Assembly (NCBI GenBank): GCA_934654605.1
Contig: CAKUGH010000001.1
Span: forward strand, 1-64,000
DNA: 64,000 nucleotides
Direction: 5' to 3'
Source: an uncultured Collinsella sp.
Lineage (GTDB): Bacteria; Actinomycetota; Coriobacteriia; Coriobacteriales; Coriobacteriaceae
The position numbers and the translations under genes were made by a program. Below the pieces are notes generated by a model that was not told the origin of the DNA, made no database searches, and saw nothing but the letters and a program-made list of their open reading frames with translations. Of the stretch, positions 169 to 26,275 are shown piece by piece; positions within the stretch are counted from its first letter, which is position 1, and every line of letters starts with the position of its first letter.

Positions 169-212
169 GCAAGAAAGCTATCGCGCACGTTTGATCGGGC
201 GGGGCAGGCTAG

Positions 213-343
213 CTTAACCTCATCTTTACCTCAAATGAGGCGAAGATGAGGTTAAGATGAGGCAAGCAAACAACTGGGCAAACGCTGAAATGTCGCCATC
301 GTTGACCTCAAAATGAGGTCAAGATGAGGTTAAGGTGAGGCAA
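213..343. repeat. GATGAGGTTAA word array with two hairpins
   Basis: Bases 213-233 and 236-256 form an inverted repeat (19 of 21 positions match, 2-base spacer). A second hairpin, perfect over nine pairs, lies at 302-310/314-322. The right sides, 243-265 and 321-343, are direct copies of each other (22 of 23), both built from the words AAGATGAGGTTAAG and GTGAGGCAA or ATGAGGCAA. No T-run follows, so this is not a classical intrinsic terminator. It resembles the block at 16253-16363 in architecture but not in sequence. Confidence 0.75.
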
Positions 344-421
344 AGCTTGAACGGGCGGGGAGTGCCGTTATCGGTGCTCTCCGCCTTTTTGCCAATGAGA
401 GCGCCCTGACCAGCGGGTTCA

Positions 422-536
422 GAAAATCCGAATCTCGAGCGACCGAAAATCCGAACTTCTGGAACATGAAAATCCGAATCTCAAGTGCACGAAAATCCGA
501 ATCGTAACCACCCGAAAATCCGAATTTGATACAGTG
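422..536. repeat. Five direct repeats with exact 23-bp period upstream of ATPase gene
   Basis: The 11-mer GAAAATCCGAA starts at 422, 445, 468, 491 and 514, that is every 23 bases without exception. Four of the five copies continue with T (GAAAATCCGAAT). The remaining 11-12 bases of each unit differ. The array ends about 50 bp before the ATPase start at 586, so it occupies the promoter or leader position of that gene. Because 23 is not a multiple of three, the repeat is not selected as protein. Identical sites at a fixed spacing of slightly over two helical turns look like a cooperative protein-binding array; what binds is unknown. Confidence 0.85.
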
Positions 537-585
537 GAATAGAAGCATCGAAAAGCTAGACCTAGGAATCTGCGGAGGGTGGCTC

Positions 586-1890
586 ATGACGGGTGAGAGA
601 CTGCATCGGGATGGATACATTCCACGCATCGTGGATGCACAAATTGAGCGCTACCTTCGTGTTTTTGGCGCGGTCGAGATTGCGGGCACCAAGTGGTGTG
701 GCAAGACGTGGGCTGCACTAGAGCACGGGGCGTCCGTCTCGTATGTCGATGAGAGTCTCGACCTCGCTCGTGCCGACCCGGCGATGATGTTGCTGGGTGA
801 CCGTCCGCATATTATTGACGAGTGGCAGCGCGTTCCTCAGATTTGGGACTACGTTAGACATGAGATCGACCGTGCCCGGGGTACGCGTGGCGCCTATATC
901 CTCACGGGTTCCGCCACGCCTGCGTTTGGCTCAAAGGCAGAAGCGCCCGCGCATAGCGGGGCCGGCCGCATCGGCCGCGTCCGCATGCACCCCATGACAC
1001 TCGCCGAGACAGGCGAGTCCAACGGCAAAGTGAGCCTGGCGGGTCTGTTCGAGCATCGTTTTGAGCCCTGCCGATGCGATGGCGATACGCCGGAGCTTGT
1101 CGAGGCCGCTTGCCGCGGCGGTTGGCCCGAGGCGATCGATATGGCTTCGGATGACGCCCAGCTCATCGCTCGCGAATATCTCAACACCACGTTTTTAAGC
1201 AGTTTCCCGGCGGTCGGTCTCGATCCGGACATCGCTCGCCGAGTCTCCGCATCGATCGCGCGCAATCTGGGACAGGCGACCACGTATAAAACGATTCTTA
1301 TGGATATGTTTGGTGCCGAGGAGGATCCCGCAGCGTTTGCCGACGAGACCAAGGTGCGCAGGTACCTGGATGCCCTCAAGGGCATGTTCATTCTCGAGGA
1401 GGTCCCCGGTTGGGTTCCCGCGGCGCGCGACAAGCGGCGCTTTACCGTCAAGCCCAAGCGCTATCTGGCGGATCCGAGCCTTGCCTGCGCCTTGTTGGGG
1501 ATGTCCTCGCGGGCGCTGGTTGCCGACTGGCAGACATTTGGTTTGGTGTTTGAGAATTTGGTTATGCGCGACCTTTCGGTCTACGCTCGTTCGCTCGATC
1601 TGCTGGATAGCACGCCCGTGCGCTATTATCGCGACGATTCGGGCCTTGAGTGCGATGCTATTGTGCAGCTAGCCGACGGACGGTGGGCGGCCTTTGAGAT
1701 TAAGGTGAGCGAAGATAAGGCGAGCGCTGGCGTTGAGAGCCTCAAACGCGTTCGCAAGAAAGTGTGCGGAAATCCTCGCTCACGCACGCGCGAGCCGGAG
1801 TTTATGGCCGTGATCGTGGGAGTGGGAGAGTATGCCCGCGAGGCCGAGGACGGTATCTACGTGATTCCCGTGCGCGCGCTGGGGTGTTAG
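586..1890 (+). CDS. AAA-type ATPase with DUF4143/PD-(D/E)XK-like C-terminus
   Basis: This 434-residue protein has a P-loop GTKWCGKT near residue 35, a Walker B segment HIIDEWQ near residue 70, an LTGSA sensor-like motif, and a C-terminal nuclease-like fold with ECDAIVQL and AFEIKVS, spaced like a D-x(n)-E-x-K site. This is the domain order of the widespread AAA_14 plus DUF4143 family, whose cellular role is not established. The start at 586 is preferred over an in-frame ATG at 526 because GGAGG at 574-578 sits at proper distance and the shorter form begins with the conserved GYIPRIVD segment. The gene is alone, directly behind the 23-bp repeat array. A second family member is at 25103-26275, with low apparent similarity. 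Confidence 0.88.
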   Translation: MTGERLHRDGYIPRIVDAQIERYLRVFGAVEIAGTKWCGKTWAALEHGASVSYVDESLDLARADPAMMLLGDRPHIIDEWQRVPQIWDYVRHEIDRARGTRGAYILTGSATPAFGSKAEAPAHSGAGRIGRVRMHPMTLAETGESNGKVSLAGLFEHRFEPCRCDGDTPELVEAACRGGWPEAIDMASDDAQLIAREYLNTTFLSSFPAVGLDPDIARRVSASIARNLGQATTYKTILMDMFGAEEDPAAFADETKVRRYLDALKGMFILEEVPGWVPAARDKRRFTVKPKRYLADPSLACALLGMSSRALVADWQTFGLVFENLVMRDLSVYARSLDLLDSTPVRYYRDDSGLECDAIVQLADGRWAAFEIKVSEDKASAGVESLKRVRKKVCGNPRSRTREPEFMAVIVGVGEYAREAEDGIYVIPVRALGC

Positions 1891-2074
1891 GGGGCGCACG
1901 CTTTGCTACCGCTGCCCCTTGCACCAAGGGCTTGACTTTTTAAGACATCATTAAGGCTTGCGTTGTGGAGCAAGCCGCAGGTCAATGCTATTCTTTTACT
2001 TTATCGTACGGTGTTGTATTCTGCCTGAATTCTCTACCTGCGATCAACGGATTAAGCGCGACCGAGCGGAAAGG

Positions 2075-3133
2075 ATGGCACGCCCGCAAGCAGGGCAAAC
2101 GCAAGCGATGAGTGGCATGGACCGACATAGCGAGCCCCAGCAGCACAAGACGGCGGCCGAATACCGCCAAGCTGCCGACGAGCACGTGCGGACCCTCAAG
2201 GATTTCTGGAAGGATTTCCTAGTGAGCGGTCTGTTTGTGCTGGCCGCCATCGTCGCCATCTTTGCGTGTCTGGCCTGGTTTGCCGCGAACAATCGAGTGA
2301 GCGCTACGGGGAGCACGATCGGGACGAAGGCGGATCGGTACACGTTGACCGCCAAGGGCGAGGGTGAGTCCGGTGCGCACACCGGGTATTACGAGCGAAC
2401 GAACAATGGTGCCGTGATTGGCACGGGTGAGAAGGACGCCTCGGGCAAGGTAGATCCCAAGCTAGATATCTCCGACGCCATGACGGTAACGCTCGCTTCT
2501 AACCTCAACAACGAGACCGCTGGTTCCCTGTATCCGGGTGCCCGCGGCAAGATTACGTTTACGGTGACGCCGCTCACGGATAACCTTGGCGATATCACGA
2601 TCAATCTGTCACGCGTGCTTAAGGTTAAGGACAACATATATAAGGAAGCCGATGGTAATCTGCCGGCTAATGCGAGCACGCTGCTCAACCTGGTAAAGGG
2701 CCACCTGCTGTTCTTTACGAGCTGCCAGAACGGCTATTACTCCGGTCGCGTGGAAAACAGCCAAATCAAGATTCCAAAGAGCGACTTTTGCGAAGACGGC
2801 AAAACGACCAACCCCACAAACAAGTCCGTCCCCGTTACGCTGTACTGGGTATGGCCGGAGTACTTCCAGAACTTTGTCCTTACGGGCAACACGAATTACT
2901 ACAAAAACCTGTTCGCGACAGAGGGCGAAGACTACGGCGCCCTGAAAACAAACGTGAACAGCAATAAAGCGCACTACTTCTATAGCACCTCGGGCAGCAC
3001 GGCCGCCACGGACGCCTACGCCAACGCGGACGCCTACTCCTCGCTCTACAACAACGCGGACGAGAAGATCGGTAACGAGGTCATTTCCATCCAGCTTAGA
3101 ATAACCGCGCAGGAGGGTACCACCAATGGATAA
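2075..3133 (+). CDS. Membrane-anchored extracellular protein, first gene of surface locus
   Basis: The protein has a cytoplasmic segment of about 47 residues, one hydrophobic helix at roughly 49-70 ending in AWFAANN, and about 280 outward-facing residues rich in T, N, G and S with no recognised enzyme motif. The helix-then-aromatic-then-N/D pattern recalls the export signals of TasA/CalY-like fibre proteins, but I see no SipW-type peptidase nearby, so this is only a resemblance. Start choice: ATG 2075 follows GGAAAGG closely; ATG 2108 is possible, and an upstream in-frame start would lack a ribosome site. The stop overlaps the next gene by 8 bases, so translation is probably coupled. It appears to be co-transcribed with the two following anchored proteins and the giant secreted protein. 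Confidence 0.7.
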   Translation: MARPQAGQTQAMSGMDRHSEPQQHKTAAEYRQAADEHVRTLKDFWKDFLVSGLFVLAAIVAIFACLAWFAANNRVSATGSTIGTKADRYTLTAKGEGESGAHTGYYERTNNGAVIGTGEKDASGKVDPKLDISDAMTVTLASNLNNETAGSLYPGARGKITFTVTPLTDNLGDITINLSRVLKVKDNIYKEADGNLPANASTLLNLVKGHLLFFTSCQNGYYSGRVENSQIKIPKSDFCEDGKTTNPTNKSVPVTLYWVWPEYFQNFVLTGNTNYYKNLFATEGEDYGALKTNVNSNKAHYFYSTSGSTAATDAYANADAYSSLYNNADEKIGNEVISIQLRITAQEGTTNG

Positions 3134-3932
3134 CATCCGCGCACATATGACTGCCGCCCACGATTGGGTCGAGAATCACCGCGCACAGACCCTCGCGGTT
3201 TTGGTACTGCTCGCGGCCATCATTTTTATCATCGGTCTTACCATGACATGGTTCGTAAGCGGCAAAAGCCTGTCCACGGTGGGCAAGATTCAAACGCCGG
3301 CACAGCTCAAGATCTTGGGTCCCAACCAGACGAGCATCGAGCCTATCGAGATTTCGTATGACGAGTCGCGTGGCGATGTTAAAAACACCGATGGCACCGT
3401 CTCTGTCCGTCGCGCATTTTGCGTAAAGAGTAACAACGACGATAACAATGACGGCGGCCAAGCGTTTGAGCTGCAGGTGGCAAATACCACCAATATCAAG
3501 GGCCTTGTTATTAAGGTGTACAAGGTAGAGGATACGACGGCGTCGGGCAAAGGCGATGTGGCCGGCCTGGATGGCGCTGGTAATAGGTATGCGTGGACCA
3601 AACAGCCCAAGGCGATTTCCTTTGAGTTGATTAACCCTGCCACGGCCGGTGATGCCTCGCTTGCCAAAGATCTTGAACAAGTCGACCCAACCTATCAGGA
3701 ATACAAAAACGTCCAGCAGAACGCTCGTCCGTTGTACCGGTACCACAAGTTCGCAAAGAAAGACCTCGACGGTTACAACGAAGAGACCAATAAGGCCAAC
3801 GATGCCACGAACTTCATCATCGAATGCACGTGGAATCCGGGCGTTGTGACCAACGCAGACGGTACCAAGGTCTCAAACGTCAAAGAGACCGACATGGTCT
3901 ACCTAATCGCTCGCGGCACAAGCAGCAATTAA
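3126..3932 (+). CDS. Membrane-anchored extracellular protein, second gene of surface locus
   Basis: This 268-residue protein has a short basic or polar N-terminus, one membrane helix at about 22-44 (ending MTWFVSGKS) and an exported portion without a recognised domain. The exported part contains an AFCVKSNNDDNNDGG stretch and mixed beta-strand-like segments. The start overlaps the preceding gene by 8 bases and has GGAGGGTACCACC just upstream. Like its neighbours, it keeps an aromatic residue (WF) at the outer face of the helix, which suggests the three proteins share an export or assembly route. No LPXTG motif or C-terminal anchor is present. The function is unknown; the context suggests a structural or anchoring role for the giant protein encoded downstream. 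Confidence 0.72.
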   Translation: MDNIRAHMTAAHDWVENHRAQTLAVLVLLAAIIFIIGLTMTWFVSGKSLSTVGKIQTPAQLKILGPNQTSIEPIEISYDESRGDVKNTDGTVSVRRAFCVKSNNDDNNDGGQAFELQVANTTNIKGLVIKVYKVEDTTASGKGDVAGLDGAGNRYAWTKQPKAISFELINPATAGDASLAKDLEQVDPTYQEYKNVQQNARPLYRYHKFAKKDLDGYNEETNKANDATNFIIECTWNPGVVTNADGTKVSNVKETDMVYLIARGTSSN

Positions 3933-3953
3933 CGCAGGAAGGGAGGACGTCAC

Positions 3954-4991
3954 ATGACAGAGGACAAGAACAAACAACTCGATAATGCCGAGGGCTTGGT
4001 TTGCGACCAGCCGGATCGGACGGCTGCGTCTGAGCAGACGCCTCCCGCCGAGCCCTCCCGCCGCAAACGCCCGTTTTGCCTGGGATCCAAAGCCCGCAAA
4101 CGCCTGTGGACGGTTGCGGTGCTGCTGTGCGTCGTTGTGATGGCGACGGGCACCTACCTTACCTACACGGCGTTTTTGGGCGGCGACTTCCTTAAGTCGG
4201 TCGTTGTTTCGGGCACGTCGCAGGCGCTGTTTGCCTCGGACATGCTCACGGGGTATACGGAAACGGTGGCGGATGCAGACATCGCCACCAACAGTATCGT
4301 GGTCGACACGAGTGGGGATACTTGCTCCTTTACCTTCCGTATTTATAACTACCTGTTGGGCGACAAGAACAAAGTCAACGATAAGGACGTCAACGCGACG
4401 CTGAGCGTGACGGCGAAGGACGTGGAGGGCACCTGGGGCGGCACCTGGAGCGTCAACGGTATGCCCGCGCAGGCGGCGGGCGACACGGTCAGCCTTTCCT
4501 TCCCTGCCAACAAGGCGACCATGTATACCTACACGGTTACGTTTGCAAAAACGGACCTCAACAAGGCGTCCTTCCTTGTTAAAGCGCAGGTCGACGCCAA
4601 TAGCCCCGGCACCAACCTTAAACTGCTCGCGGCCAAGATTGCGCCAGCCGAGCGTGCGGAGGTAACGGCTTCGGGCGTTTCGGGCGAGTGGGTCGATAAG
4701 AATTCGGATGATACAAATGTCGGCGACTTCGACGCTTACAACTATCGCGTGACCGTAACAGGCACTACGACCAGGGTGAAGCTCACGTGGGGAGATGGGG
4801 TCGAGCTCGACCCGTTCTTTCCGCAGAACCACAAGAACGGTGATGCGCAGGCGGCCGTCAACGGCAACTCGGTCACATACGATGCGTCCCCTGGCTCGGA
4901 AATCATTACCTTCTACCGGAAGGGCGATTCAAAGCCGACCAGCTGGGACGAGGACGGTATTAAGGTTTCATGTTCGCCCGCGACAAGCTAG
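3954..4991 (+). CDS. Membrane-anchored extracellular protein, third gene of surface locus
   Basis: This 345-residue protein has a cytoplasmic N-terminus of about 50 residues that ends in a basic patch (RRKRP, KARKR), one membrane helix at about 51-72, and an exported region of about 270 residues. The exported part shows repeated threonine/valine beta-strand patterns such as ATLSVTAKD and YRVTVTGTTT, consistent with Ig-like or beta-sandwich folds, and one cysteine pair is possible. A strong GGAAGGGAGG ribosome site lies at 3936-3945. The next gene, the 3627-residue secreted protein, starts 69 bp downstream with no terminator between. No enzyme motif is visible. Confidence 0.72.
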   Translation: MTEDKNKQLDNAEGLVCDQPDRTAASEQTPPAEPSRRKRPFCLGSKARKRLWTVAVLLCVVVMATGTYLTYTAFLGGDFLKSVVVSGTSQALFASDMLTGYTETVADADIATNSIVVDTSGDTCSFTFRIYNYLLGDKNKVNDKDVNATLSVTAKDVEGTWGGTWSVNGMPAQAAGDTVSLSFPANKATMYTYTVTFAKTDLNKASFLVKAQVDANSPGTNLKLLAAKIAPAERAEVTASGVSGEWVDKNSDDTNVGDFDAYNYRVTVTGTTTRVKLTWGDGVELDPFFPQNHKNGDAQAAVNGNSVTYDASPGSEIITFYRKGDSKPTSWDEDGIKVSCSPATS

Positions 4992-5060
4992 CCGCAACGA
5001 GCCGCAAGCATAGATTTTGAGACACAGCACGGGGCAAGAGATAGAACGAGGTAGGACCAG

Positions 5061-8000
5061 ATGAGAACGGCAAAGCGCATAACAACCGCATGCCTGACTG
5101 CGATCATGATTTTCCAGGCGCTTGCACCCTCCACAGAGGTGTTCGCGCAAGAGCTCGACGCCGTGATGGAGGCGTCTGTCTCCGCCGCGCGTGCCGCGGG
5201 CAACACCGCACGCTCCGTACAGGATGCCGTGGCCACCGCTTTGGAAAATGCCGACCAGGCTACATCTGATGATGCCGCGACGGCTCCGGGAGCCGATGCG
5301 GGTGCCACCGAGGACGGCAACGGTTCTACCGGCACCGATGGCTCGCAGGATTCCACGACCGATGGAGCCACCAACGGCGATGCCTCAACGGAGGGCGATG
5401 CATCCCAAGACGATACGACTGCCGATGACGGCACCGCCGACGAAGGGCAAGCGGATGACGCGGACGCGGATGCCGATGCTCGGGCAGATGCCGCCTATGC
5501 GTACAACACGGTTGAGGAGCTGAAGGACAAAGGAAAAGTCACAAAAATTACTGAGGAAAACGGCACCGTTACGCAGATCGTGTTTGCCAACGAGGCAGAT
5601 CTCATCAAGATATCTAACACCAATCCAACTGTTTACCAGAATGCCGTAATCAGTAGAGAACCAAACACGGGCAGCGAGTTCAAGCTGGACAGTGCGATCG
5701 TCGATAATAATTTGAAATTCAGAGGCTTCGGTGGCGAAAACGTCCCCTTCAAGGGGTCGCTTGACATGAAGGGGAGCACCCTTGTCGTGAGCCATACCCT
5801 CTATAACAACATTCAACTTAGTGATGCGAATAGAACGGTGACGGTGACATGGAAGGGCACGGATGCCCAGCCTGTTATCGCTTCTAAAATTAATGGCAAT
5901 GATCAAACGCTCGTTGCCAATGTAGCGGTTGCCAATGTGAGCGCGGATAAGGCGACGCTCAAATCACCGTTGCTGGGTGAAGTCGATGGGGTTCTCACGC
6001 TTGAGGCGGCTTATTCGGTTGATGCGGGCAAGACCCTTGCAGTGGATATCAACTCGGACTTGGGAAACGTCGGTTTGCTGGCGAACACTGTAAAGGCCAG
6101 TGCGTCCTTTACCATTGCTAAGCTCGAGGGATTGCCATCGAGCGGGACGCAGACTGTTGCAACCACCAAAGATGGAGCTAGCGCTGGCGGCTTGATCGGT
6201 CTCTGCAAGGATGGCGTGACTGTTTCGCTCGCTAATCCGATCGACCTATCCAATTTCACTGTTGTTGGCAAAGCAGCCAGCGGTGGCTTCATCGGCAAAG
6301 CAACCAAGCTCACCTTGGACACAGACAACAAGAAGTTCACCTGCCCCGCCACCGTTGGTGATGCGAGCAGCCAAAGCTCCGGCGGCTTCATCGGCGACGT
6401 TAGTTTTGCCAGCCCGGTCGAATTCACCAACAACGACCAAATCGATACTGGCTTGGGCGTGAAGCTTGGCCAAAGTGGAGACATGGGCGCGGGCGGCGTG
6501 TTCGGTCTTCTGGATACAACGAACGGCGATGTCACAATATCGGGTGGCTCGTATGCCAGCAAGCTGGTGGCGGGCTCCGGCTCCATCTATGGTGGTCTGG
6601 TCGGTAGAGTTCAGGATGTGACCAGTACAGAGACGCCGAACAATACTCTTCATATAAAGACAGATGGTGAGGGCAATCGCTGCTCGGTCGACACTACGTG
6701 CAGCGTCGCTCCGCGACTGGCGGGAGGTCTGGTCGGCTGGGTGGCAAAGAGCAACAATACCGGAGGCGTTGTAATCGTTGACGGTGCGGATGTCACGTGC
6801 CATTCTCCGCAAGTAACTGGAAAGAACTGCGGGTTTGGCGGTGTTGTTGGCGCCTTGGATAGCGGCTACAGCGTGGGCGGGCGTTCGCGTTTTGGAATTT
6901 TGGATTGCGGGGACATTCGCGTTACAGCCGATACACCAATCGCATGCGGCGCCGGAATTGTGGGTTCGGCATGGAACGGCGTCTTGCGCTTGCGTGGGAC
7001 TACCGATTTGTCTGAGTGCAAGCTCGAGGCCAACGGTAATACCAACCAAATTCTTAGATCCTTGGATGGATGCTCTCCATTGGTGTTTGCTTTGGGTTCG
7101 GGATCGGATGCTAAGACGACGAGTAATGATTATTGGATTTACAAACGTCCTGCTGCGGCGAAGATCGATGACCTGACCTATAACCAGGTTATCCGTCTGA
7201 CCGGAGAGAAGGGCAAGCTCAGCAAGGATCTTATTAAACTTGATAAAAGCACCTTTTATCAGCCGTTGTGCAACCTGAGTGGTGCTGAAGATGCTGGTAG
7301 CAGTGCGGGCTATTCATGGGGCAGACAGCTTCAGCCCCAAGAGGGTAAAGTGAAGTCGGGTACGTACCTCATTAATGATGCGGATACATTCGCATGTATT
7401 GCCATGACGGTCCAAACGCACGGCTACTTTGGTGGCGTCTTCGGCATCGGCACAGGTAGCAGCCTTAAAAACTGGTATGGCAATAGAGGGAATACTTTCT
7501 TAATTACTTCCAACATTGATCTACGGGGTACGGGTCTTGAAGGCCTTGCGTGTGATGGGTCCTGGCAAGTCAATACCTTCGGAGGTGCTGTCGAAGGAAA
7601 CCGGCGCACCGTTACCCTGGCGATTGGTGAACCATTTGGCACACGCAATGACGTTGCGCTCGGCGCAAATGATCCGTCTGAAGGCAATGGCAAGATTTAT
7701 CGCCACAGCCGCCTGGGTCTTTTCAACGCCGTTGGTGGTGGCGCGACGGCGAATGACTCTACTGCGAAGGTTAGCAACCTCACTATCGATGGCATTGTGA
7801 ACTTTGATAACGGTCTGGCTGTTGATGCCGGATCGCTTGCGGCGACCATCGCGGGTAACGTAACGCTCAGCGGCGTTACGTGCGAGCCAAAGCTTACCTG
7901 CGATGACACGTTCGGCAACGATGTCAACATGGGCGGCATCGCGGGCAGCGTGAGGGGCGCCGGAACCGTTTCTTTCGAAGGCGGCGCAAAGGCGCGGGCG

Positions 8001-11000
8001 ATCATCAACACGGGCTCCACTCTCAAAGGCAACACGCGCATTGGTGGCGCTATCGGCTATGTGGCGGATGTTGCCGCCACTGTCAATGTGGCGAGCCTCG
8101 AGATCGGTGGCGAGATTGCTGCGAGTAACAGCGCGAGCGGTAAGAAAGCTCAGGTCGGCGGCTTTATCGGCTGCATCATGCAGAGTACTTATAAAGAAGG
8201 GAAAATAGCCAGTTCGGCTGAAAAGAACGTTAGCATTACGGGACTTTCGTTCAGCTCGTTCGACATGACCGTGGGTAAGAGCGGCGACGCGAAGAACGGC
8301 GCGGGCGGCCTTCTGGGCTACAGCTGGGGCAATGCCGTCGTCACCATCGGAGATGGCAGCGTTAACAAGGACGCAAACTCTTATGCCCTAAAGACAACCA
8401 ACGCCTCCATAACCGCGAACAGCTCAGGTGAGCTCGGCGGTCTCGTATATGCCGCCAGCGGCCACTGGATTATCAACGACCACGCCATTGATCTTTCTGG
8501 CACGACCATTAAAGCGGAGAATGCTACGACGCTGGGCCTACTCGTTGGCCGTGGTAGCAAGGTAGCTGCTGGGGTATATGGCTCCGAGTCGTATACGGGC
8601 TTATACCTGGAAGACAGGGCTTATTGGGGCACTGCATACAACGTTTCTGGCATCACAGTCACGGCGTTCAAGGTAACGACCTTCGACGAGTGGGTGGGTA
8701 ACGGCGTAAGGCCCGGCAGCAAGCTTATGGACGGTGAATGGAACACGGTTGTTTCGCTGCACACCGAAGGCGCCACGTTGAACATGAGCGGCAAAGCGGA
8801 GGAAGACAACAGCTACAAGAATCGCTCGGCTTTTGGCCAAAGCAAAAATACGGTTTCTAGTAAAAGCTACGATCTCAATAAAAACAGCAGCACGCGTTAT
8901 TACTACAACCTTGATCGTGCGTACAGCGACATGAAAGCCAGCGGGAATGACTACACGGTGACGAAAATTATCCACCTCAGCACCCCTCAAGAGTTGCTTT
9001 TGTGGTCAGCTTGTCGCTACGCTCCTGCGGAAATACAGACGTACATTGCTCCCGGGATGACTGGGGAAAATGCCGGCGACAGAAATGCCGGGCTTAATAG
9101 CTATACGGTTTATATCAATAAAGGCTCGGACACGAGCGCAGGGCAAAAACCCATCGATTTAAGCGGTTATAGCTATTATCCGGCACAGCCCAAGGGGCAT
9201 GTATACGTTCAAAATGCGAATATCAAGTTCTGCTACTCGGATATCAAATGTACATTTGCCAACAACAAATCCAACGCGGCCGGCACGCAGCACGAGAACA
9301 TGCATTGCGGACTTTTGCGTACGATTAATGCGAACCTTTCGGTAAACAATGTCACGCTGGGCGGCACTGTCGGGATTGCAGTTAACGATGGCGATACGAG
9401 TAAGGCAGGACCTGGCGGCACTGTGTCAGGTGCTTTGGTGTGTCGCTATGTGAGCTGGTCTTCGGGAGTGGACAGGCAGATTTCCATCAATAATCTGACT
9501 CTCAATGGCTTGGCTGTCGATGGCGTAACCGATGAAACCGGCTATGCGCCTTTGCTCATCAATGAAATGCAGACGCACGTGAAGCTGAACGCGAAGAACA
9601 TTTCGACTACGGGATACGCAGACAACACCAAGGCGGCGACGTCGCTGTTTGGCAAACTTGGCGTTGGCAGCACGGCCGACCAGGTAACGGCGATATTTAG
9701 CCTTATCAATCTCCCCAGCGCAACAGACGACTCGATCTTCACGCGTGCAAGCTTGCTTGAGAGCTTCGGTTACGGCAAAGGTAATACGGGCTCTGCGGTG
9801 TATACGTTTTTCAAGGCTGACCAAACCAACGATGCGCAGACCAACAAGGTCACGTTCGGCAAAGAGATCGATGCCAATGACGCCGACAAAAATGAGTACA
9901 TAGGCAAGCAGCTTTGGTATTACGACGAGGACGGCTACGGAACCGATGGCAACCTCGTGACAGTTGGATCCACGGTAGCTGATAAGACGGGTAAGTCTCC
10001 GAAGTTCGGAGGTTATCTTCCGTATGTGAAAAAGGGCAAGGCAAACGAAAGCGATGTTCAATACCATGAAATCAAGGTTAACCAACGCGTGCCCAATCTT
10101 GCGATGGGTTGCGGCACCTATGGTGACCCCTATGCCATAACCAAGGCAACGGAGTTCAACACGGTTGCTGAGTACATCAATACTCAGAATCCAAGCGACG
10201 GCTGGGAAGTTACGATTGCGGCTAATCAGGAAGAGTTGTGCCGGCGTCGTTCGTCTAGCAACAATACTGATAACGAAGTGACGTACGTCTACAATCTGGC
10301 GAAGAAAACGTGGGAGAAAAAGACCGGGACTAACACTATCGACTCCACGGATACGCTTGACGACGCGACGATGCATAGCTATCTCCAGAGTGCCTACTAC
10401 AGCATCGAACCGGTTGATAACAAGGGAAATAGCATCGATACGCTTGTGCTCGATATCACTGCTTTCCAAGGCTTGGGTAATCAAGGCAATCCGTTCCGCG
10501 GCGTTATTGTTGGCAACCTGCGTGGGACGCAAAAGGTCGATTCGTCGGCGACCATCAAAATCGACAACACCGGCAGCACGAGTGCGCCTAAGGGCTTGAT
10601 CCCGTATAGCTACGGCAGCGTTGTGAGTAATCTAAACATTGAATACTCGGGCAACGCAGCCTCAATTGCGCATAAGAAGGTAGATACCTCTGGTGTACCG
10701 GGCGCGTTCTTTGGCGGCGTGATTGGGTGCATCATGGGTGGCGACAATATCATCGACGGCGTGTCGGTGAGTGCGAGTGGTGGCTTTAGCGTTGCGGGTA
10801 CGGCTGGCGATAAAGGCGCACACCTTGTGCCCGTTGGCGGGTATGTGGGTGCCATTGCGGGTGGCGGCGTTATCTTCCGCAACTCCTCGAACGTGAGCGG
10901 CGCGCTCAACAAGTGGCATAACGCCGGCACTTCCCTCTATGACAACCCGTATGTTGGCCGTGTTATCGATGGCTATGCGTTCAGCGAGCTTGCCGGTAAC

Positions 11001-14000
11001 GGGATTCTCGAAAACACTGACCGCAACTACAGGGTGAACAATCTGGACACTACGGATAAGAAATGCATAGAGACGGGTGAAACGCAGGGCCGCTATAGGG
11101 GTAACGGGACCACGAACAACCTCGCTATAACCACGACCGTTAATGACTCACAGGGCCTGCTCGTGCTTTCAGCCATCATCAGCAGCGGCGCGGCTGGTGG
11201 CTCGGCGAATACGACAACAGCCAACGAATCATACGGCACGTACGCCGGATCACGCGCGTATCTGGGCGGCAATACATCGACGAACAAAAAGGGATACAAA
11301 TTCGGCAATCAGAATTACGGCAAGGTACGCAACGCGAAATATGATAATGTCGGCCAGCCGGCGAGCGCGGCGACAGATTTTGACGTTGCGACCAAGGACG
11401 ACACGCTGAGTCCGGGCAGCCAGAATGCTGCCGCGCTCGATCAGACTGATGGCAGCAAGGTGAACTCCCCTTACCTGGTGTCGAAATACGCCACGTGGCA
11501 GACGGGCAACATCTGCGCCGCGCAGGCCTCGGGCATAGATTTGCGATTCGTGAACACGGCCGAGAAAATTGACTATGACATGATGCCTTACGGCACGGGT
11601 TATACGGGCCTTTCGGGCCGCTATTACTCCAACGCGTGCGCATCAAATAAGGGCGCCGATCGCGACCGCATCGTGCCCTTCGTCGCGACCATCAACGGCA
11701 ACGGTGCAACTATCAGGGTCGGCAGCAACGGAAGCGACGAAAGCGATAACGGTAAGAAGAATCCGTACGACATCCAGGAATACACCGACGACGACTACAA
11801 GCTCACCGGCGCGGGCGCCCTCTTTGGCACCGTAACGTACACTTCGGAAAACGTGTCGGAGAGCATCGGCACTCCGGCAACGGATGGAGCTGTCGCCACA
11901 GGCAACAGCGGCTACACCGTCCAGAACCTGAATTTCTACGACTGCAACATCTCGCTAAGGTACGTAAGCTATAGCGAAATCGCTACTGTCGACAATAATA
12001 TTGCGACGGTGGCGACTGACTTGGCGAATGAGGTTGGTGTCGGTCTGCTTGCGGGCACCACGGCGAACGCGAATTCGCTCGGGAGCTATGGTAAATACAG
12101 CACGGTCGATATGACGAAGTGCAGCGTTAACGGGCCTACCAACGTTGGCGGTCTAATTGGTACGTCAGGCTATGGGGCTCGTAGCACTGACAAAAGCGAT
12201 ACCACCTGGGTGGTCAACCGAACGGGCGGACAGTCGTCCCCGGTAAAACTTTACGACTGCTCGTATGACGAAATGGCTGTCAACGGCGGCGAAAACGTTG
12301 GTGGCTTCGTCGGCAAGCTCAATGCGGGCTCGCGGGGTGGCGTTTGGACGACGATAAATAAAGACGTAGCTAAAGACTCTACGATCGAATCGACTTCGGC
12401 CGGTCCAAGAGTTGGCGGCATAATCGGCGTTAATGATGATGCGGTATATGTGAATATGGACCCTGCCAACAACGAGCCGACTGCTGGCGGAAAGGCGACC
12501 ATCAAAAATGTGACATTAAGTGTGCTTCCGAGCGCTGGCGCTTCGGGCGGAGTTGGTGGTATTGTCGGTAAAGCTGAGAACAGCGTATATGCCCACAATC
12601 TCGTTGTGACAAGCGATGCGGACAAAGAGATAATATTCGGCGCCAAAAATACCAACTCTCTTAAAAACGTTGGTGGTATCGCAGGTAATATAACGAGCGG
12701 TAGCGAGTTCAAGTTAGATTCTTGCGAAGTCAGCAACATCCACCTTGAATCCCGCGAAGTGTCCGGCGGTATTTCGGGCAACATTTCCAATGAACCGACT
12801 GTGACGTGCAACGACGTTGTGATCAGTAGCAACAACTTTAATAGTTCGTATGCTGGCGGTATTAACGGTTCACTGAGCGGAGCGCCGAAGTTCAACATCA
12901 CGAACACGGTGATCAAGAACAATGTGTTCGTAAATATTAGAAATAAGTGGGAGGATCAGAGCGGTGGCAACAAGAGTCGTTCTGGCGGACTCGGTGGCGA
13001 CGGAAGGGGCGTCTACAAGCTTGCAAACGTCCTGTTCGACAGCAGCGACTTTCAAGGTAAAGACGGCCAGGGCATCTTCTTTGGCGATGCTAAGAGCGGT
13101 CTAAAAATATATGCGGCAGGCATAGACATTAAGCCTGGTAACAAAAAGACCCGTGATGACTTGCCGCCGTTGCTGTTCGATACGACTTCGGGCAGCACGG
13201 TTAAAGATATTAATAAGGTTTCCTATGTTGCGTTTGCTGACTACAAAGACACGTTTGCCACATTCGATGCAAATACGACGTTGTACAGTGACGACTCCTC
13301 CAGTAACAAGACAGTTGCCGCCTATCCTTATGTCACCACGAGCCCTGCGAGCAAAATCGCGGTACGCGTGTCCGACACTGACACCGCTGACCGTTACCTT
13401 TTTGGCGATGGTGCAAATGTTGGACTGGCTGAGACTATCAAAAAGGAGGCCAAGGCCGGTCAGAGCGAGTTCGGCAGCTATACCTACACCAACATCGGCG
13501 GCCGCGATGACTCTGGTGCGTATCAGAATAATGTGAGTGGCTTCGATGAGAATTCTCCTGTCGGAACATTCAACGGAAACAATGAAAGCAAGAAGGTGGC
13601 TGAGGACAAGAACTTCAACGTCCTCGTCCTCTCCGGTGGTGATACCACGACGGTGGAGAGCTATCTCAATATTGTGACGAACGGTGGCTATTCGGATGCG
13701 AAGCGCCTTAACCGTGTGACCGCAAATATTGAGACGTTTACGATCGACGAGAACAAGCATTTTGTGAAAGATGCGACTGCAACGTCTACAGTTTCGATCG
13801 AAAATAAGAATACCCAGCAAATGAAGTTCCGCGCGAGCGGATCGGCATGGGACAACGAGAAGGGCCGCTTTAACCTGTTGACCGTCACCTTTACCGAGGC
13901 AGGCCGGAGCTACAAGGTCCAGGTGCCCATCATCGTCAAGCGCATGCTCGAGATTGACTTTACGGCAACCTTTGTCGAGGGGTCCAACTTTAAGTCGAGT

Positions 14001-15944
14001 AGCTATAACGGGCGTGGTGCTAACGCGCACGTGCTGATCGGCGGCGGCGAAACCATGACGGGATATCTCACCTGGACATATGGCCAGGCGTACGGCAAGG
14101 CGACTAGCTACGGTTGGAATACGTACCTTGTGAGTGGCGGCTCCATGGGACCGTTGCAGAAAAAGATTAAGTTCCTGGGCGATGGTACCAAGGGAACATT
14201 GCCGGCTGGTACCCAACTTACGCTGGTGGATACAGCAAATAACAACAAGGAATATCACTATACGGTCGGCGCAAATGGAACTGACTCGCTGAGTCTGTCC
14301 GATTTTATACACGCCAAGAGTGAGACCGAGAATGAGAAGTACACCGAGCCTTGGCTGAGCGAGGAGGTTGGCGTAACAGCGAACGAGGACAACGCCGCAG
14401 GTACGTGGGTCGAGACGACTGTCAGTGACGCTACCGCTAAGGTCGGAGGCAAATACTACCGCCCCAAGACGGCAGAAGACGTTAAAGCCAATAAGAAGCT
14501 GTATGCCCTGAGCGTGTCTGAGGAAAACCCGGTGACCGAGAACTTCTATCTGGTAGTTCGAACGCCGAGTAACTCTGCTAGCGTAAATGGCTACACCGCC
14601 ACAGAGATTGGCAACAAGAGCGTCAACACGCGCGTCAATTACGTGTTGCGAACGGGTAGCGATGGGCTGGACGAAGACGATCACCATAACACCGCTTCGA
14701 CGTACAGTATCGCGTCGAACTATACGCACCGTTTGGAGGATAAGAAATCTGGCACTAATCAGATGACGATGAAGGGCACGACCTATCCTCTCGAGATGAA
14801 AGTGATCGATACCATTAGCTTTAGCGAGCAGGAGTACACAAGCTCCGACGCGCTGTACTACCAGTTGGATTCCTCGCTGGTGAACTACGTTGGCGGTGCA
14901 GCTGCAGGTGCGCATGGATACCCGACTGGAACTTTGGGCACGTATTCGTTCTACGTGACGGTGGGGGGTCACTACTACACGTGGGAGAATTCCGGGTGGG
15001 TAGATGTCGGCACGAAGGAAACGCCGGTGGTTGCTGATGCCAAAACCTGGTCATCTACAACTGGTGGCGACATGTCGCTTGTGCTCGCCGATGCCAGCGG
15101 TAAACCTATTGATCTTTCCGGCATTCGCGAGAAGGCCAAGGCAAATGGCAGCGAGTTCACCATCACCATGAGGGCGAGCCTTACCATGACCGAGCCCGCG
15201 TGCCAGACTGGTATTATCGCGTCGCAGAAAAGCGGCAGCGATAAGTACACGAAGCCCAACTACCGTGCCTACCTTTCCACGCATGCCGATACGCTCAGCA
15301 CCAGCAGCAACTCGGCATACAGCGACGGCAACGCTGGATACTACCGCGCGGATGTTGGCTCCTCGACCATTGCGCTCGAGGCTTCCAAGAAGTCGCAGTT
15401 GGGTATTAACATCGATGACCTCAAGTCCGCCGACGGCTGGATCGCGCTGCTGGGAACGTATGACTTCTCAAAGCTCACGGGTGCCGATGCCATGATTTCT
15501 AAGGCCACTAAGGTGAGGTACACGTTGAGCTTGCAGCGGCGCAACGACAAAGGCACGTATGATGCGGTGACCGATATCTCGAAGTACATCACAGAACTTC
15601 GTAGTGACAAACCGGGTGCGGACTCTTGGAGCGACAGCGGCAACAGCTACGTATTTACCGATAGCAAGGGCACTGACGGCACGTTCGCCACGCGCGATGG
15701 AAACAGCCTTGCCTTTAAGCATGCTTTCCTCGTTAAGGTGAACACGGACGTTGAGGGTGAGAAGAAACAAACCTACGCAAACTACCGCTTGGTTCTGACG
15801 GCCCAGCTGATGACCGGCAGCGACATCGTCGACACGCCGGTCAACGTTAGCAACCTCGATGGCTATCGGAATTCCGACTACGTGACGTACACGCTAGCGC
15901 GCATCAACACCGAGGGCATTCAACACGGTTCCACGACCAACTGA
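5061..15944 (+). CDS. Giant secreted GLUG-repeat surface protein (3627 residues)
   Basis: A Sec signal peptide occupies about residues 1-29 (basic RTAKR start, hydrophobic core, FAQ end). Residues about 60-150 are low-complexity and rich in D, T, G and A. From about 370 to 2650 the sequence repeatedly shows GLUG-type turns: GGLIGLCKDG, GGFIGKA, GGLVGRV, GGVVGALDSGY, GGAIGYV, VGGLIGTSGYG, VGGFVGKL, VGGIIGVND and VGGIVGKA. Such motifs occur in long beta-helical adhesins. The last 950 residues are beta-rich without clear repeats. There is no LPXTG motif and no C-terminal membrane helix, so the protein is not sortase-anchored in the usual way; the three membrane proteins encoded upstream are candidate anchors. 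GAGGTAGGA precedes the start. The gene looks less GC-rich than its neighbours, which could indicate transfer. Confidence 0.82.
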   Translation: MRTAKRITTACLTAIMIFQALAPSTEVFAQELDAVMEASVSAARAAGNTARSVQDAVATALENADQATSDDAATAPGADAGATEDGNGSTGTDGSQDSTTDGATNGDASTEGDASQDDTTADDGTADEGQADDADADADARADAAYAYNTVEELKDKGKVTKITEENGTVTQIVFANEADLIKISNTNPTVYQNAVISREPNTGSEFKLDSAIVDNNLKFRGFGGENVPFKGSLDMKGSTLVVSHTLYNNIQLSDANRTVTVTWKGTDAQPVIASKINGNDQTLVANVAVANVSADKATLKSPLLGEVDGVLTLEAAYSVDAGKTLAVDINSDLGNVGLLANTVKASASFTIAKLEGLPSSGTQTVATTKDGASAGGLIGLCKDGVTVSLANPIDLSNFTVVGKAASGGFIGKATKLTLDTDNKKFTCPATVGDASSQSSGGFIGDVSFASPVEFTNNDQIDTGLGVKLGQSGDMGAGGVFGLLDTTNGDVTISGGSYASKLVAGSGSIYGGLVGRVQDVTSTETPNNTLHIKTDGEGNRCSVDTTCSVAPRLAGGLVGWVAKSNNTGGVVIVDGADVTCHSPQVTGKNCGFGGVVGALDSGYSVGGRSRFGILDCGDIRVTADTPIACGAGIVGSAWNGVLRLRGTTDLSECKLEANGNTNQILRSLDGCSPLVFALGSGSDAKTTSNDYWIYKRPAAAKIDDLTYNQVIRLTGEKGKLSKDLIKLDKSTFYQPLCNLSGAEDAGSSAGYSWGRQLQPQEGKVKSGTYLINDADTFACIAMTVQTHGYFGGVFGIGTGSSLKNWYGNRGNTFLITSNIDLRGTGLEGLACDGSWQVNTFGGAVEGNRRTVTLAIGEPFGTRNDVALGANDPSEGNGKIYRHSRLGLFNAVGGGATANDSTAKVSNLTIDGIVNFDNGLAVDAGSLAATIAGNVTLSGVTCEPKLTCDDTFGNDVNMGGIAGSVRGAGTVSFEGGAKARAIINTGSTLKGNTRIGGAIGYVADVAATVNVASLEIGGEIAASNSASGKKAQVGGFIGCIMQSTYKEGKIASSAEKNVSITGLSFSSFDMTVGKSGDAKNGAGGLLGYSWGNAVVTIGDGSVNKDANSYALKTTNASITANSSGELGGLVYAASGHWIINDHAIDLSGTTIKAENATTLGLLVGRGSKVAAGVYGSESYTGLYLEDRAYWGTAYNVSGITVTAFKVTTFDEWVGNGVRPGSKLMDGEWNTVVSLHTEGATLNMSGKAEEDNSYKNRSAFGQSKNTVSSKSYDLNKNSSTRYYYNLDRAYSDMKASGNDYTVTKIIHLSTPQELLLWSACRYAPAEIQTYIAPGMTGENAGDRNAGLNSYTVYINKGSDTSAGQKPIDLSGYSYYPAQPKGHVYVQNANIKFCYSDIKCTFANNKSNAAGTQHENMHCGLLRTINANLSVNNVTLGGTVGIAVNDGDTSKAGPGGTVSGALVCRYVSWSSGVDRQISINNLTLNGLAVDGVTDETGYAPLLINEMQTHVKLNAKNISTTGYADNTKAATSLFGKLGVGSTADQVTAIFSLINLPSATDDSIFTRASLLESFGYGKGNTGSAVYTFFKADQTNDAQTNKVTFGKEIDANDADKNEYIGKQLWYYDEDGYGTDGNLVTVGSTVADKTGKSPKFGGYLPYVKKGKANESDVQYHEIKVNQRVPNLAMGCGTYGDPYAITKATEFNTVAEYINTQNPSDGWEVTIAANQEELCRRRSSSNNTDNEVTYVYNLAKKTWEKKTGTNTIDSTDTLDDATMHSYLQSAYYSIEPVDNKGNSIDTLVLDITAFQGLGNQGNPFRGVIVGNLRGTQKVDSSATIKIDNTGSTSAPKGLIPYSYGSVVSNLNIEYSGNAASIAHKKVDTSGVPGAFFGGVIGCIMGGDNIIDGVSVSASGGFSVAGTAGDKGAHLVPVGGYVGAIAGGGVIFRNSSNVSGALNKWHNAGTSLYDNPYVGRVIDGYAFSELAGNGILENTDRNYRVNNLDTTDKKCIETGETQGRYRGNGTTNNLAITTTVNDSQGLLVLSAIISSGAAGGSANTTTANESYGTYAGSRAYLGGNTSTNKKGYKFGNQNYGKVRNAKYDNVGQPASAATDFDVATKDDTLSPGSQNAAALDQTDGSKVNSPYLVSKYATWQTGNICAAQASGIDLRFVNTAEKIDYDMMPYGTGYTGLSGRYYSNACASNKGADRDRIVPFVATINGNGATIRVGSNGSDESDNGKKNPYDIQEYTDDDYKLTGAGALFGTVTYTSENVSESIGTPATDGAVATGNSGYTVQNLNFYDCNISLRYVSYSEIATVDNNIATVATDLANEVGVGLLAGTTANANSLGSYGKYSTVDMTKCSVNGPTNVGGLIGTSGYGARSTDKSDTTWVVNRTGGQSSPVKLYDCSYDEMAVNGGENVGGFVGKLNAGSRGGVWTTINKDVAKDSTIESTSAGPRVGGIIGVNDDAVYVNMDPANNEPTAGGKATIKNVTLSVLPSAGASGGVGGIVGKAENSVYAHNLVVTSDADKEIIFGAKNTNSLKNVGGIAGNITSGSEFKLDSCEVSNIHLESREVSGGISGNISNEPTVTCNDVVISSNNFNSSYAGGINGSLSGAPKFNITNTVIKNNVFVNIRNKWEDQSGGNKSRSGGLGGDGRGVYKLANVLFDSSDFQGKDGQGIFFGDAKSGLKIYAAGIDIKPGNKKTRDDLPPLLFDTTSGSTVKDINKVSYVAFADYKDTFATFDANTTLYSDDSSSNKTVAAYPYVTTSPASKIAVRVSDTDTADRYLFGDGANVGLAETIKKEAKAGQSEFGSYTYTNIGGRDDSGAYQNNVSGFDENSPVGTFNGNNESKKVAEDKNFNVLVLSGGDTTTVESYLNIVTNGGYSDAKRLNRVTANIETFTIDENKHFVKDATATSTVSIENKNTQQMKFRASGSAWDNEKGRFNLLTVTFTEAGRSYKVQVPIIVKRMLEIDFTATFVEGSNFKSSSYNGRGANAHVLIGGGETMTGYLTWTYGQAYGKATSYGWNTYLVSGGSMGPLQKKIKFLGDGTKGTLPAGTQLTLVDTANNNKEYHYTVGANGTDSLSLSDFIHAKSETENEKYTEPWLSEEVGVTANEDNAAGTWVETTVSDATAKVGGKYYRPKTAEDVKANKKLYALSVSEENPVTENFYLVVRTPSNSASVNGYTATEIGNKSVNTRVNYVLRTGSDGLDEDDHHNTASTYSIASNYTHRLEDKKSGTNQMTMKGTTYPLEMKVIDTISFSEQEYTSSDALYYQLDSSLVNYVGGAAAGAHGYPTGTLGTYSFYVTVGGHYYTWENSGWVDVGTKETPVVADAKTWSSTTGGDMSLVLADASGKPIDLSGIREKAKANGSEFTITMRASLTMTEPACQTGIIASQKSGSDKYTKPNYRAYLSTHADTLSTSSNSAYSDGNAGYYRADVGSSTIALEASKKSQLGINIDDLKSADGWIALLGTYDFSKLTGADAMISKATKVRYTLSLQRRNDKGTYDAVTDISKYITELRSDKPGADSWSDSGNSYVFTDSKGTDGTFATRDGNSLAFKHAFLVKVNTDVEGEKKQTYANYRLVLTAQLMTGSDIVDTPVNVSNLDGYRNSDYVTYTLARINTEGIQHGSTTN

Positions 15945-15951
15945 TTCTGCC

Positions 15952-15993
15952 AAAGGGGGCGGCAACCATCCGGTTGCCGCCCCCTTTCTTGCT
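15952..15993 (+). terminator. Intrinsic terminator of surface locus
   Basis: A perfect 16-bp stem (AAAGGGGGCGGCAACC, with its complement) closes a 4-base loop, and the 3' arm ends in TTTCTT. It lies 8 bases after the giant gene's stop, as expected for an intrinsic terminator of the whole surface operon. Confidence 0.93.
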
Positions 15994-16020
15994 TAAGCGG
16001 GGCCGTCTGAAGACCCCACT

Positions 16021-16221
16021 GGACAGTTGGTTCAGATTTGTATAAATCCAAGTCCCGCCAGACGGTCCTGACGCTCGTTTTGGAGCAAAAAGTAGTCCAA
16101 AACTAAGGTTCCGTAGCCGAATGGGCTCGATTTGCGTGCAAGAGATCGCCGATGATGCCTTTTAGGAGGTAGGAATGCAGCTTCGACCGCGTCATATAAT
16201 ACAAATCTGAACTAACTGTCC
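16021..16221. mobile_element. 201-bp MITE-like element with 23-bp terminal inverted repeats
   Basis: Bases 16021-16043 (starting GGACAGTTGGTTCAG) and 16199-16221 are inverted copies with a single mismatch. The interior has no start-to-stop frame of useful length, so it cannot be autonomous. No clear target duplication is seen at the edges. The size and ends fit a miniature inverted-repeat element or the collapsed remains of an insertion sequence. It lies between the surface-locus terminator and a lone HTH gene. Confidence 0.7.
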
Positions 16222-16252
16222 ATCCGCCGTTAGAAGAGGGCGTTCCGGCTTC

Positions 16253-16363: not shown

Positions 16364-16628
16364 ACGTGTTAGCTGGGAGATGGGGAGGGGTTAATAATTA
16401 CGCCTTCAGCCCAAAATGACCAAAAGAGTACCAATTTGGCTGGCAATTCATTCCCAACTAGCCGCGCGCTAACTACCTGCGTAAATAAAAGATGAAGATA
16501 TTCCTCACGAACGTCTTAAATGCCCGTATACCGATGTTGCGATTTTCAATTAACTGTTACGCGCAAACAGCAAAATGCTACTATCTAACATGCACGTTAG
16601 AAAACAGGTAAACGTTTAGGGCTAAGAA

Positions 16629-24905: not shown

Positions 24906-25027
24906 ACGGGTATTGTACGCGATGGCGTGCGCGGGGGAGGCCCCACCGGGAGCAACCGTGACATTTGTCCCAGCAAGGGGGACCGCGACTATATCTCGCC
25001 GACAATCATTTCACCTGAACATTTTTG

Positions 25028-25063
25028 ATAGCTGTATCTATCATTTTTGCTAGATACAGCTAT
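25028..25063. promoter_or_regulatory. Palindromic operator-like site before second ATPase gene
   Basis: A perfect 13-bp inverted repeat (ATAGCTGTATCTA at 25028-25040 and its complement at 25051-25063) is followed by a further partial copy, TTTTTGCTAGATAG, ending at 25080. These AT-rich repeats lie just before the ribosome site AAAGGAGG (25089-25096) of the ATPase gene and could be a repressor site or an RNA hairpin. Confidence 0.65.
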
Positions 25064-25102
25064 TATTTTTTGCTAGATAGATTTATCAAAAGGAGGCTCT
25101 AG

Positions 25103-26275
25103 GTGTATAGGCGCAAGATATCGACCGTGTTACAGCAAAGACTCATGGGGCCGCGTTCCTTTATTCAGGTGGTTATGGGTCCCAGACAAACTGGCAAGAC
25201 CACGGCCATCAAGCAGGCGGTCAAGGCTTGCGGGCTTCCGTGTCGCGTGGCGAGTGCCGACTCGCCGCGCGAACTCGCGGGGGATTGGATCGACCTTGAG
25301 TGGCGCCAGGCTCGGCAGCTGACAAGTAATGGCTCGCGTGCCATCCTTGTGCTCGACGAGATACAAAAGGTTACGGGTTGGTCCGAGACGGTCAAGGCCC
25401 TGTGGGACGAAGACTCTTGGAACGACACCGAGCTTCTTGTGGTGCTGTCCGGTTCGTCGAGCTTGCTTCTCGGCAGTGGGCTGACCGAATCGCTTGCGGG
25501 GCGATTTGAGCTACTGCGTTCGACGCATTGGAGCCTGTCTGAGATGTCCGAGGCGTTTGGCTATAGCTTCGAGGATTATCTGATGTTTGGCGGGTATCCG
25601 GGTGCCGCGATTCTCAAGAGCGATGTCAATCGTTGGCGAGAGTATATGCGCGATTCGATCGTGGAATCGACGATTTCGCGTGACGTATTGCAGATGGAAG
25701 ACGTGCGCAAGCCGGCGCTCATGCGAGCCCTCTTTGAGCTGGGTGCGCAGTATTCGGCGCAGGAGATATCGTATCGAAAACTGCTGGGGCAGCTCGACGA
25801 TAAGGGAAACACTGATACCGTGCGCCATTATCTTGATCTGCTGTCCAAGGCGGGCATGATGAGCGGGTTGCAAAAATACGACGCCAAGCAGGTGAGGTCG
25901 AGGGCAAGCTCGCCGCGACTGCTTGTGCATGATCCCTCATTAATGTTCTCGATGTGGCGCGGGACGGGTGACTTGTTGGCTGATTCTGCCCTGCGAGGGC
26001 ATTTGGTCGAAACTGCGGTGGGCGCCCGGCTCATCGCGCGTGCTCAAACAGAAGGCTTTGAGCTGTATTGGTGGCGTGAGGGTAATCTCGAGGTGGACTT
26101 TGTGGCGAAGCGCGGCGATGACGCCCTTGCGGCGGTCGAGGTGAAAAGCGGCCGCGTGTCCAAGAGCGGTATGACTGAGTTTTTGGCGCAGAACCCTCAG
26201 GCGAAGCCGATGATTGTGGGCGATCGTAACGTTTCGGTTGAGCAGTTCTTGCGGGATGAGGTGGAGCTGTTTTAG
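25103..26275 (+). CDS. AAA-type ATPase with DUF4143/PD-(D/E)XK-like C-terminus (second copy of family)
   Basis: This 390-residue protein has a P-loop GPRQTGKT near residue 28, a Walker B ILVLDEIQKV near 83 and an LSGSSS sensor-like motif. A middle helical domain (DUF4143) contains VRHYLDLLSKAGM, and a C-terminal nuclease-like site reads LEVDFVAKRG and AAVEVKSGR. A GTG start is chosen because AAAGGAGG lies 6 bases upstream. It is the same broad family as the gene at 586-1890, but the two share only motif-level similarity. Members are often annotated as ATPases of unknown or putative toxin/defence-related role; nothing here settles that. It stands alone with its own repeat-containing upstream region. 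Confidence 0.88.
   Translation: MYRRKISTVLQQRLMGPRSFIQVVMGPRQTGKTTAIKQAVKACGLPCRVASADSPRELAGDWIDLEWRQARQLTSNGSRAILVLDEIQKVTGWSETVKALWDEDSWNDTELLVVLSGSSSLLLGSGLTESLAGRFELLRSTHWSLSEMSEAFGYSFEDYLMFGGYPGAAILKSDVNRWREYMRDSIVESTISRDVLQMEDVRKPALMRALFELGAQYSAQEISYRKLLGQLDDKGNTDTVRHYLDLLSKAGMMSGLQKYDAKQVRSRASSPRLLVHDPSLMFSMWRGTGDLLADSALRGHLVETAVGARLIARAQTEGFELYWWREGNLEVDFVAKRGDDALAAVEVKSGRVSKSGMTEFLAQNPQAKPMIVGDRNVSVEQFLRDEVELF

Follow-up and report, generated by a model that had tools for sequence, protein, structure and literature searches.

Periodic repeat arrays before DUF4143 (PDC-S01) ATPase genes, from a Collinsella locus to the wider family

Introduction

PDC-S01, a single-gene phage-defence candidate in PADLOC, reportedly stems from a 2024 preprint by Payne. 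In excerpts of a survey across prokaryotes it ranks fourth in frequency among defence types, with 29,494 bacterial and 9,986 archaeal cases, and validation is described there as pending for most such defence candidates (PMC12988326). Excerpts of another study give a DUF4143 gene of Thermus as up 6.6-fold with plasmid when Argonaute was present (PMC4406477). The two DUF4143 genes identified in the window, that is, the whole stretch of 64,000 bp from an uncultured Collinsella sp. that was analyzed, both match PDC-S01 profiles, but the locus differs from PDC-S01 as it appears in the excerpted literature by its arrays of short repeats. No report of such arrays was found in the excerpts on DUF4143, PDC-S01, related ATPases, and repeats or autoregulation in defence, a scope outside which the Payne 2024 preprint fell. 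The first-pass annotation had held that repeats plus ATPase, if conserved as a unit, would be a new kind of system; the ATPase being already catalogued as PDC-S01, the arrays are rather a new property of a known family.

The archaeal ATPases 2qen (PABY2304) and 2fna (SSO1545), whose folds are solved, match the predicted structure of the window ATPase. The alignments run only to residue 304-305 and leave most of the nuclease-like part described below uncovered, and we know of no array for either of them. Plant NLRs, CED-4, Apaf-1 and Avs proteins differ from the window ATPase, which is without their long C-terminal repeat sensor and has a C-terminal nuclease-like domain and a DNA array at its gene. 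To our knowledge, the winged-helix domain of NLRs and CED-4 is not a DNA reader, a point that counts against binding of the array by the ATPase. MalT and similar STAND activators are STAND ATPases acting at promoters with repeated sites, and MalT uses a LuxR-type HTH to activate operons other than its own. The present locus shares with MalT a STAND ATPase (here predicted) and repeated promoter sites, but the places seen with its exact 23-bp repeat pair in genomes of the class are next to DUF4143 genes or where a contig ends. RptR, in the excerpted description, is a separate small regulator of a restriction-modification island with a 6-bp palindrome and direct repeats in the promoter (PMC12255303). 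On that description, direct repeats in a defence promoter and a local regulator are common to both cases, the difference being that here the candidate reader would be the putative defence protein itself (PMC12255303).

The repeat array and its ATPase gene

Five exact copies of the 11-mer GAAAATCCGAA occupy positions 422..524 of the forward strand, with starts at 422, 445, 468, 491 and 514 and a period of 23 bp, and a search of both strands found no further exact copy in the window. The periodic self-match score of the region 300-600 was 41.6, against a best value of 16.4 in 1000 dinucleotide shuffles, and no other 350-bp tile, taken along the window in steps of 100 and scored at periods 18-60, reached as much. 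With up to two mismatches, GAAAATCCGAA has 10 matches in the window for 12.7 expected, neither rarer nor commoner than chance, so that the unusual feature is the ordered arrangement. Exact-match counts and shuffles thus confirm the five 11-mers at fixed spacing before a DUF4143 ATPase gene that had been noticed in the first-pass annotation. That annotation had carried the feature on to 586; the repeats stop at 524, and 586 is the likely ATG of the ATPase gene, 61 bp past the end of the array and preceded at 7 bp by a GGAGG ribosome-binding site (574..578, forward strand). The filler between repeats, described as unrelated, is so in the window but is conserved in some relatives (L027 and L044). 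Protein binding on one face of the DNA had also been suggested; with 10.5 bp to each turn of B-DNA, a period of 23 bp makes 2.19 turns, so that the sites line up on one face only roughly.

In CRISPR arrays the repeats measure about 23-50 bp and alternate with unique spacers of comparable size, which 11-bp repeats with 12-bp filler do not fit. An iteron plasmid origin was likewise rejected, the adjacent gene matching only AAA_14 and DUF4143 and no Rep family in Pfam.

The ATPase gene (586..1890, forward strand) encodes a PDC-S01 protein of 434 aa, in which PF13635 (DUF4143) scored 94.3 bits and PF13173 (AAA_14) 35.7 bits, both above their gathering cut-offs (28.1 and 27, respectively). The PADLOC PDC-S01 profile PDLC04790 matches residues 10-432 of the 434 at 1.5e-53. 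Residues G34, G39 and K40 of the Walker A motif (codons 34-41, positions 685..708, forward strand) are invariant in 60 of 60 sequences, as are the Walker B residues D78 and E79 and, in the PD-(D/E)XK motif (codons 357-373, positions 1654..1704, forward strand), D357, E371 and K373. The AF2 model, with a pLDDT of 93.6, has 2qen, 2fna, RPP1 and CED-4 as its top VIA matches, and in this fold of the whole protein the predicted nuclease-like part comprises strands 340-349, 355-362 and 367-375 followed by helix 376-395, with the motif residues placed on the core sheet. Pfam, PADLOC and AF2 together lead to a predicted NLR/CED-4-like (STAND) ATPase of NBD-HD-WHD architecture, with a C-terminal domain predicted to be PD-(D/E)XK nuclease-like and to keep its catalytic motif intact. 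A sequence search for relatives of solved structure returned none up to E 1, NCBIfam gave a single match (E 0.021) far under its cut-off, and a viral structure library yielded AAA-type matches, the best with E 9.9e-05 and TM 0.36. The ATPases of three uncultured Collinsella MAGs (L041, L072 and L077) are 96% identical to that of the window.

The gene upstream of the unit is present in 21 of 43 genomes of the genus. Within 1.1-1.5 kb past this neighbour gene, ATPase and array were both found in three of the 21 and neither in the other 18, and a repeat with at most one mismatch was kept there in 0 of those 18. Window positions 169-16381 (16.2 kb) replace 193 bp of a genome without the unit (G149), and the stretch also contains an open frame of 3627 aa and others that look like surface proteins. 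Array and ATPase are thus linked, though at this site other sequence accompanies them.

Arrays at orthologs and GAAAATCCGAA pairs elsewhere

Matches to the window ATPase at E 1e-120 or better occur in 72 of 396 genomes of the class. At the 70 of 89 places examined, mostly the closer ones, with proteins 47-96% identical to that of the window, a significant 5' array was found in 65 orthologs (63 of them at 22, 23, 44 or 46 bp), and a 3' array in 11 of 69. The joint presence or absence of array and ATPase in the 21 relatives supports the core of the first-pass interpretation. GAAAATCCGAA is recognizable (best pair with at most four mismatches) in 33 of the 70, against 0 of 350 shuffles. Among the 16 orthologs whose best pair has at most two mismatches, the orientation is reverse in 11 and forward in five, and sites in either orientation argue for double-stranded DNA as the substrate. 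When five protein regions were compared with the repeat sequence in 60 orthologs, none could be tied to it: partial correlations were +0.34 for the NBD (the wrong sign), -0.25 for the nuclease part and -0.06 for the winged-helix part. At one locus (L225/L333, G037:C1:2480190) a GAAAATCCGAA-type array also stands right after the DUF4143 stop codon.

Contigs from genomes and from viruses (95 and 10 stretches, respectively) were scanned for two exact GAAAATCCGAA copies 13-43 bp apart. In the scanned range, 105 loci had two exact copies, and in 98 of them consecutive copies lay 13-43 bp apart. A DUF4143-family frame starting within 600 bp of the pair was found in these stretches at 7 of 14 loci with spacing 23, at one of five with spacing 22 (L066, itself one of the seven), and at four of nine with spacing 32, from Bacteroidales MAGs; at all other spacings such a frame occurred in 0 of 75 locus-spacing cases, and none was near any pair of the 10 viral loci. 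Loci with spacing 23 or 32 counted as misses were L010, L020, L001, L068, L085, L052, L055, L031, L033 and L034, where no DUF4143 frame was found, and also L027 and L048, which are contig ends with arrays resembling those of L044 and L066. GAAAATCCGAA faces the opposite way to the gene in L044, L049 and L054, and the DUF4143 gene of L049 appears as two tblastn pieces. An exact 23-bp GAAAATCCGAA pair occurs in six of the 396 genomes of the class, the places seen being beside DUF4143 genes or at the end of a contig. The first-pass annotation had predicted DUF4143 genes as the neighbours of 23-bp-spaced arrays, and frames within 600 bp at spacings 23, 22 and 32 only are as predicted. The repeat sequence is not universal, subfamilies and paralogs having their own.

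Arrays across the DUF4143 family

PF13635 genes were collected from bacterial and archaeal genomes, gene models were made, and 350 bp around each start and stop were scored at periods 18-60, an array being called significant when its score exceeded all 100 shuffles. Six of 88 loci lacked a gene model and were dropped, and of 130 genes five were removed because they reached 80% identity. Among the resulting 125 genes below 80% identity, significant arrays were found at 78 starts vs. 12 stops. The tree set of 119 excludes six genes outside the BLAST-connected family, membership being by BLAST connection and not by PF13635 gene by gene; all 78 genes with a 5' array fall within it. The other 41 of the 119 have no detectable array, and one subclade of 20 members is nearly devoid of them (17 of 20). 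Periods were 23 bp in 22 genes, 32 in 17 and 33 in 22, the remainder being scattered, and arrays reach up to about 10 units (L107). Archaeal cases include a Methanomassiliicoccaceae MAG (L117) with period 23 and a Methanosarcina genome (L173) with period 33, the latter borderline, being above all 100 shuffles in the scan and matched by 1 of 60 in a separate set.

On the protein tree, spacing goes with clade. Of the 28 genes in the window clade (support 1.0), 22 have arrays at 22-24 or 46 bp, two at other periods and none at 31-34 bp, and four are without array; of the 44 in the other large clade (support 0.914), 34 have arrays at 31-34 bp, one at 23 and two at other periods, and seven are without array. 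Parsimony on the 66 of 119 genes labelled 22/23/46 or 31-34 required three changes of period, against at least 14 in 1000 shuffles, an agreement suggesting that each protein recognizes the repeats at its own gene.

The repeat words differ greatly among genes (CTCGAAAATCGAGT, ACCGTGAAAATGGT, AAAGTGGGATTTTT, TCCCATTTCGTGAT and others). In 28 arrays of three paralog-rich genomes, exact repeated 9-mers recurred at other paralogs 14 times vs. 9.0 expected from shuffles. The repeats thus appear largely private to their gene, and words shared so little above chance make one common regulator unlikely, whereas for a gene-specific array the ATPase would be the natural reader. In a Mantel comparison of 55 genes, repeat similarity did not significantly follow protein similarity (Spearman 0.038, with 216 of 2000 permutations as high), its mean increasing only above 50% protein identity. 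Single Coriobacteriia genomes may hold many members, with 25 and 21 PF13635 matches in G037 and G027, respectively.

In a control scan with the same scoring and a simple longest-frame rule for gene starts, arrays were found at 43 of 86 DUF4143 starts (five stops), three of 29 Fic starts, four of nine starts of ATPase_2 genes over the cut-off, and nine of 20 starts of genes with weak PF01637 matches. The ATPase_2 signals were weak and of mixed periods, so that ATPase_2/DUF234 is not convincing as a second array family; in this the genes differ from those described here. PDC-S27 combines these two domains, and one scanned gene (L260) matches ATPase_2, wHTH and DUF234. Several of the genes with weak PF01637 matches encode AAA ATPases of about 350-375 aa (AAA_16/ATPase_2-like; L266, L269, L270, L272, L275 and L276) and have tandem repeats with a period of 19-20, some built of 10-bp units, immediately ahead of the start codon; in L267 the period is 29. 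Arrays at ATPases with PF01637 matches indicate that self-arrays are not special to DUF4143.

The promoter region

Just past the last repeat of the window lies an extended -10-like TGATACAGT (527..535, forward strand), a putative promoter element judged from the sequence and its relatives, and in three near relatives (L317-L319) a -10-like TACAGT (extended TGCTACAGT) begins 4 bases past the periodic segment. A plain sigma-70 scan of the window found no promoter. In the stretch that runs from the last 25 bases of the array to the start codon, a -10-like score of at least 6 was reached in 23 of 67 orthologs, for 3.0 expected. The 50 matches scoring at least 5 are scattered, 17 starting 0-9 bases past the array, 19 within its last 20 bases and 14 further downstream, and this scatter is a point against the operator reading. 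If TGATACAGT is the promoter element, the array overlies the promoter and not the 5' UTR. The last repeat, here as in the three nearest relatives, would then lie on the promoter spacer, a position from which a bound protein would be expected to block RNA polymerase. The array thus sits at the likely promoter, with the putative -10-like element just after the repeats, in line with the earlier remark that it lies where an operator of the ATPase gene would be.

Possible function of the arrays

The array is very probably a functional site coupled to its ATPase, and it is probably also bound by that adjacent protein, to judge from spacing and gene-specificity. A role mainly in autorepression, as operator of its own ATPase gene, is favoured with moderate confidence; repression rather than activation, and the link of the ATPase to defence, are inferred. 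The array would be a cis-acting double-stranded DNA operator belonging to the neighbouring gene, whose product would be a STAND-like ATPase in which nucleotide-binding, helical and winged-helix domains are joined to a nuclease-like domain of the PD-(D/E)XK type. Several ATPase molecules may bind successive repeats, with a spacing set by the geometry of the subfamily (about 23 or 32-33 bp), and the bound molecules would sit over the promoter and hold down expression of their own gene. Upon invasion, depletion of the ATPase or a change of its state could free both promoter and nuclease. Against the operator reading speak, besides the scatter of the -10-like matches, the 41 of 119 genes lacking a detectable array, the lack of an overall correlation between repeat and protein similarity, the search in which no protein region could be tied to the repeat sequence, the 3' arrays (11 of 69 orthologs, and the motif past the stop codon of L225/L333) and the arrays at a further group of ATPases.

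A main role as an iteron-like loading or tethering platform, where the ATPase binds the array and the nuclease is stored, sensed or licensed while regulation is secondary, is unlikely but would explain why an array may grow to about 10 units, beyond the need of a simple operator, why one gene (L225/L333) has its own motif on both sides, why sites occur in either orientation, and why the nuclease motif is intact in all 60 sequences. The mostly 5' location of the arrays (78 of 125 starts vs. 12 of 125 stops) and the enrichment of -10-like elements there speak against it. Binding by a different host factor, such as a silencer or general regulator, seems improbable: many repeats do contain an A or T run flanked by G/C, which would suit AT-seeking silencers, but the sharing of repeat words among paralogs within a genome barely exceeds chance and the spacing tracks the clade of the ATPase protein.

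It is still harder to regard the array as a site of recombination or insertion by which the cassette is mobilized. The gene does lie within a 16.2-kb accessory island absent from relatives, and the gene flanked on both sides (L225/L333) might be read in the same way, but in the 1.1-1.5 kb past the neighbour gene a repeat with at most one mismatch was retained in none of the 18 relatives without the unit, and gene and array together make up only a small part of the island. An RNA leader element is the least credible alternative; the repeats precede the gene and all run in the same direction in the window, but there and in the nearest relatives they lie upstream of a -10-like element, and 11 of the 16 best-matching orthologs have the motif in reverse orientation.

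The operator reading may be carried further, though only as a doubtful conjecture: PDC-S01 might be a large class of NLR-like nucleases, many with a private DNA address, whose clade-spaced, array-bound state would be a resting, self-inhibited immune receptor, with invader DNA, altered supercoiling or host shut-off releasing both transcription and nuclease. Were this resting state real, the protein would be a guard watching its own locus. Real and recurrent, the arrays are a testable trait of a major family that awaits explanation. Private arrays give a predicted DNA ligand, readable from sequence alone, for each array-bearing PDC-S01 protein; they offer a molecular handle on this common family, allowing tests of binding, repression and specificity swaps, and a DNA signature by which its members may be sorted.

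Other repeats of the window

A second array, of different sequence (units containing TTTTTG[A/C]TAG, period 22), lies at 25018..25070 on the forward strand, before the second DUF4143/AAA_14 gene (25103..26275, forward strand; 390 aa), which is also a PDC-S01 member (PDLC04791 at 3.7e-164). Its score of 18.4 compares with at most 14.4 in 1000 shuffles. Intergenic 19-bp tandem repeats were also seen at 60132-60183 and 58235-58271, with no recognised DUF4143 frame beside them. Positions 205-346 (142 bp), absent from the close relatives G001 and G113, are flanked by near-identical 14-bp direct repeats (191-204 and 347-360) and filled with CTTAACCTCA/TGAGGTTAAG inverted repeats of 11-bp period, and have the look of a small repeat element that was inserted. 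Towards the opposite end of the island, positions 16241-16363 contain a similar phased palindromic element with the unit GTGGAAAGCTGGAAAGTTA and a period of 20.
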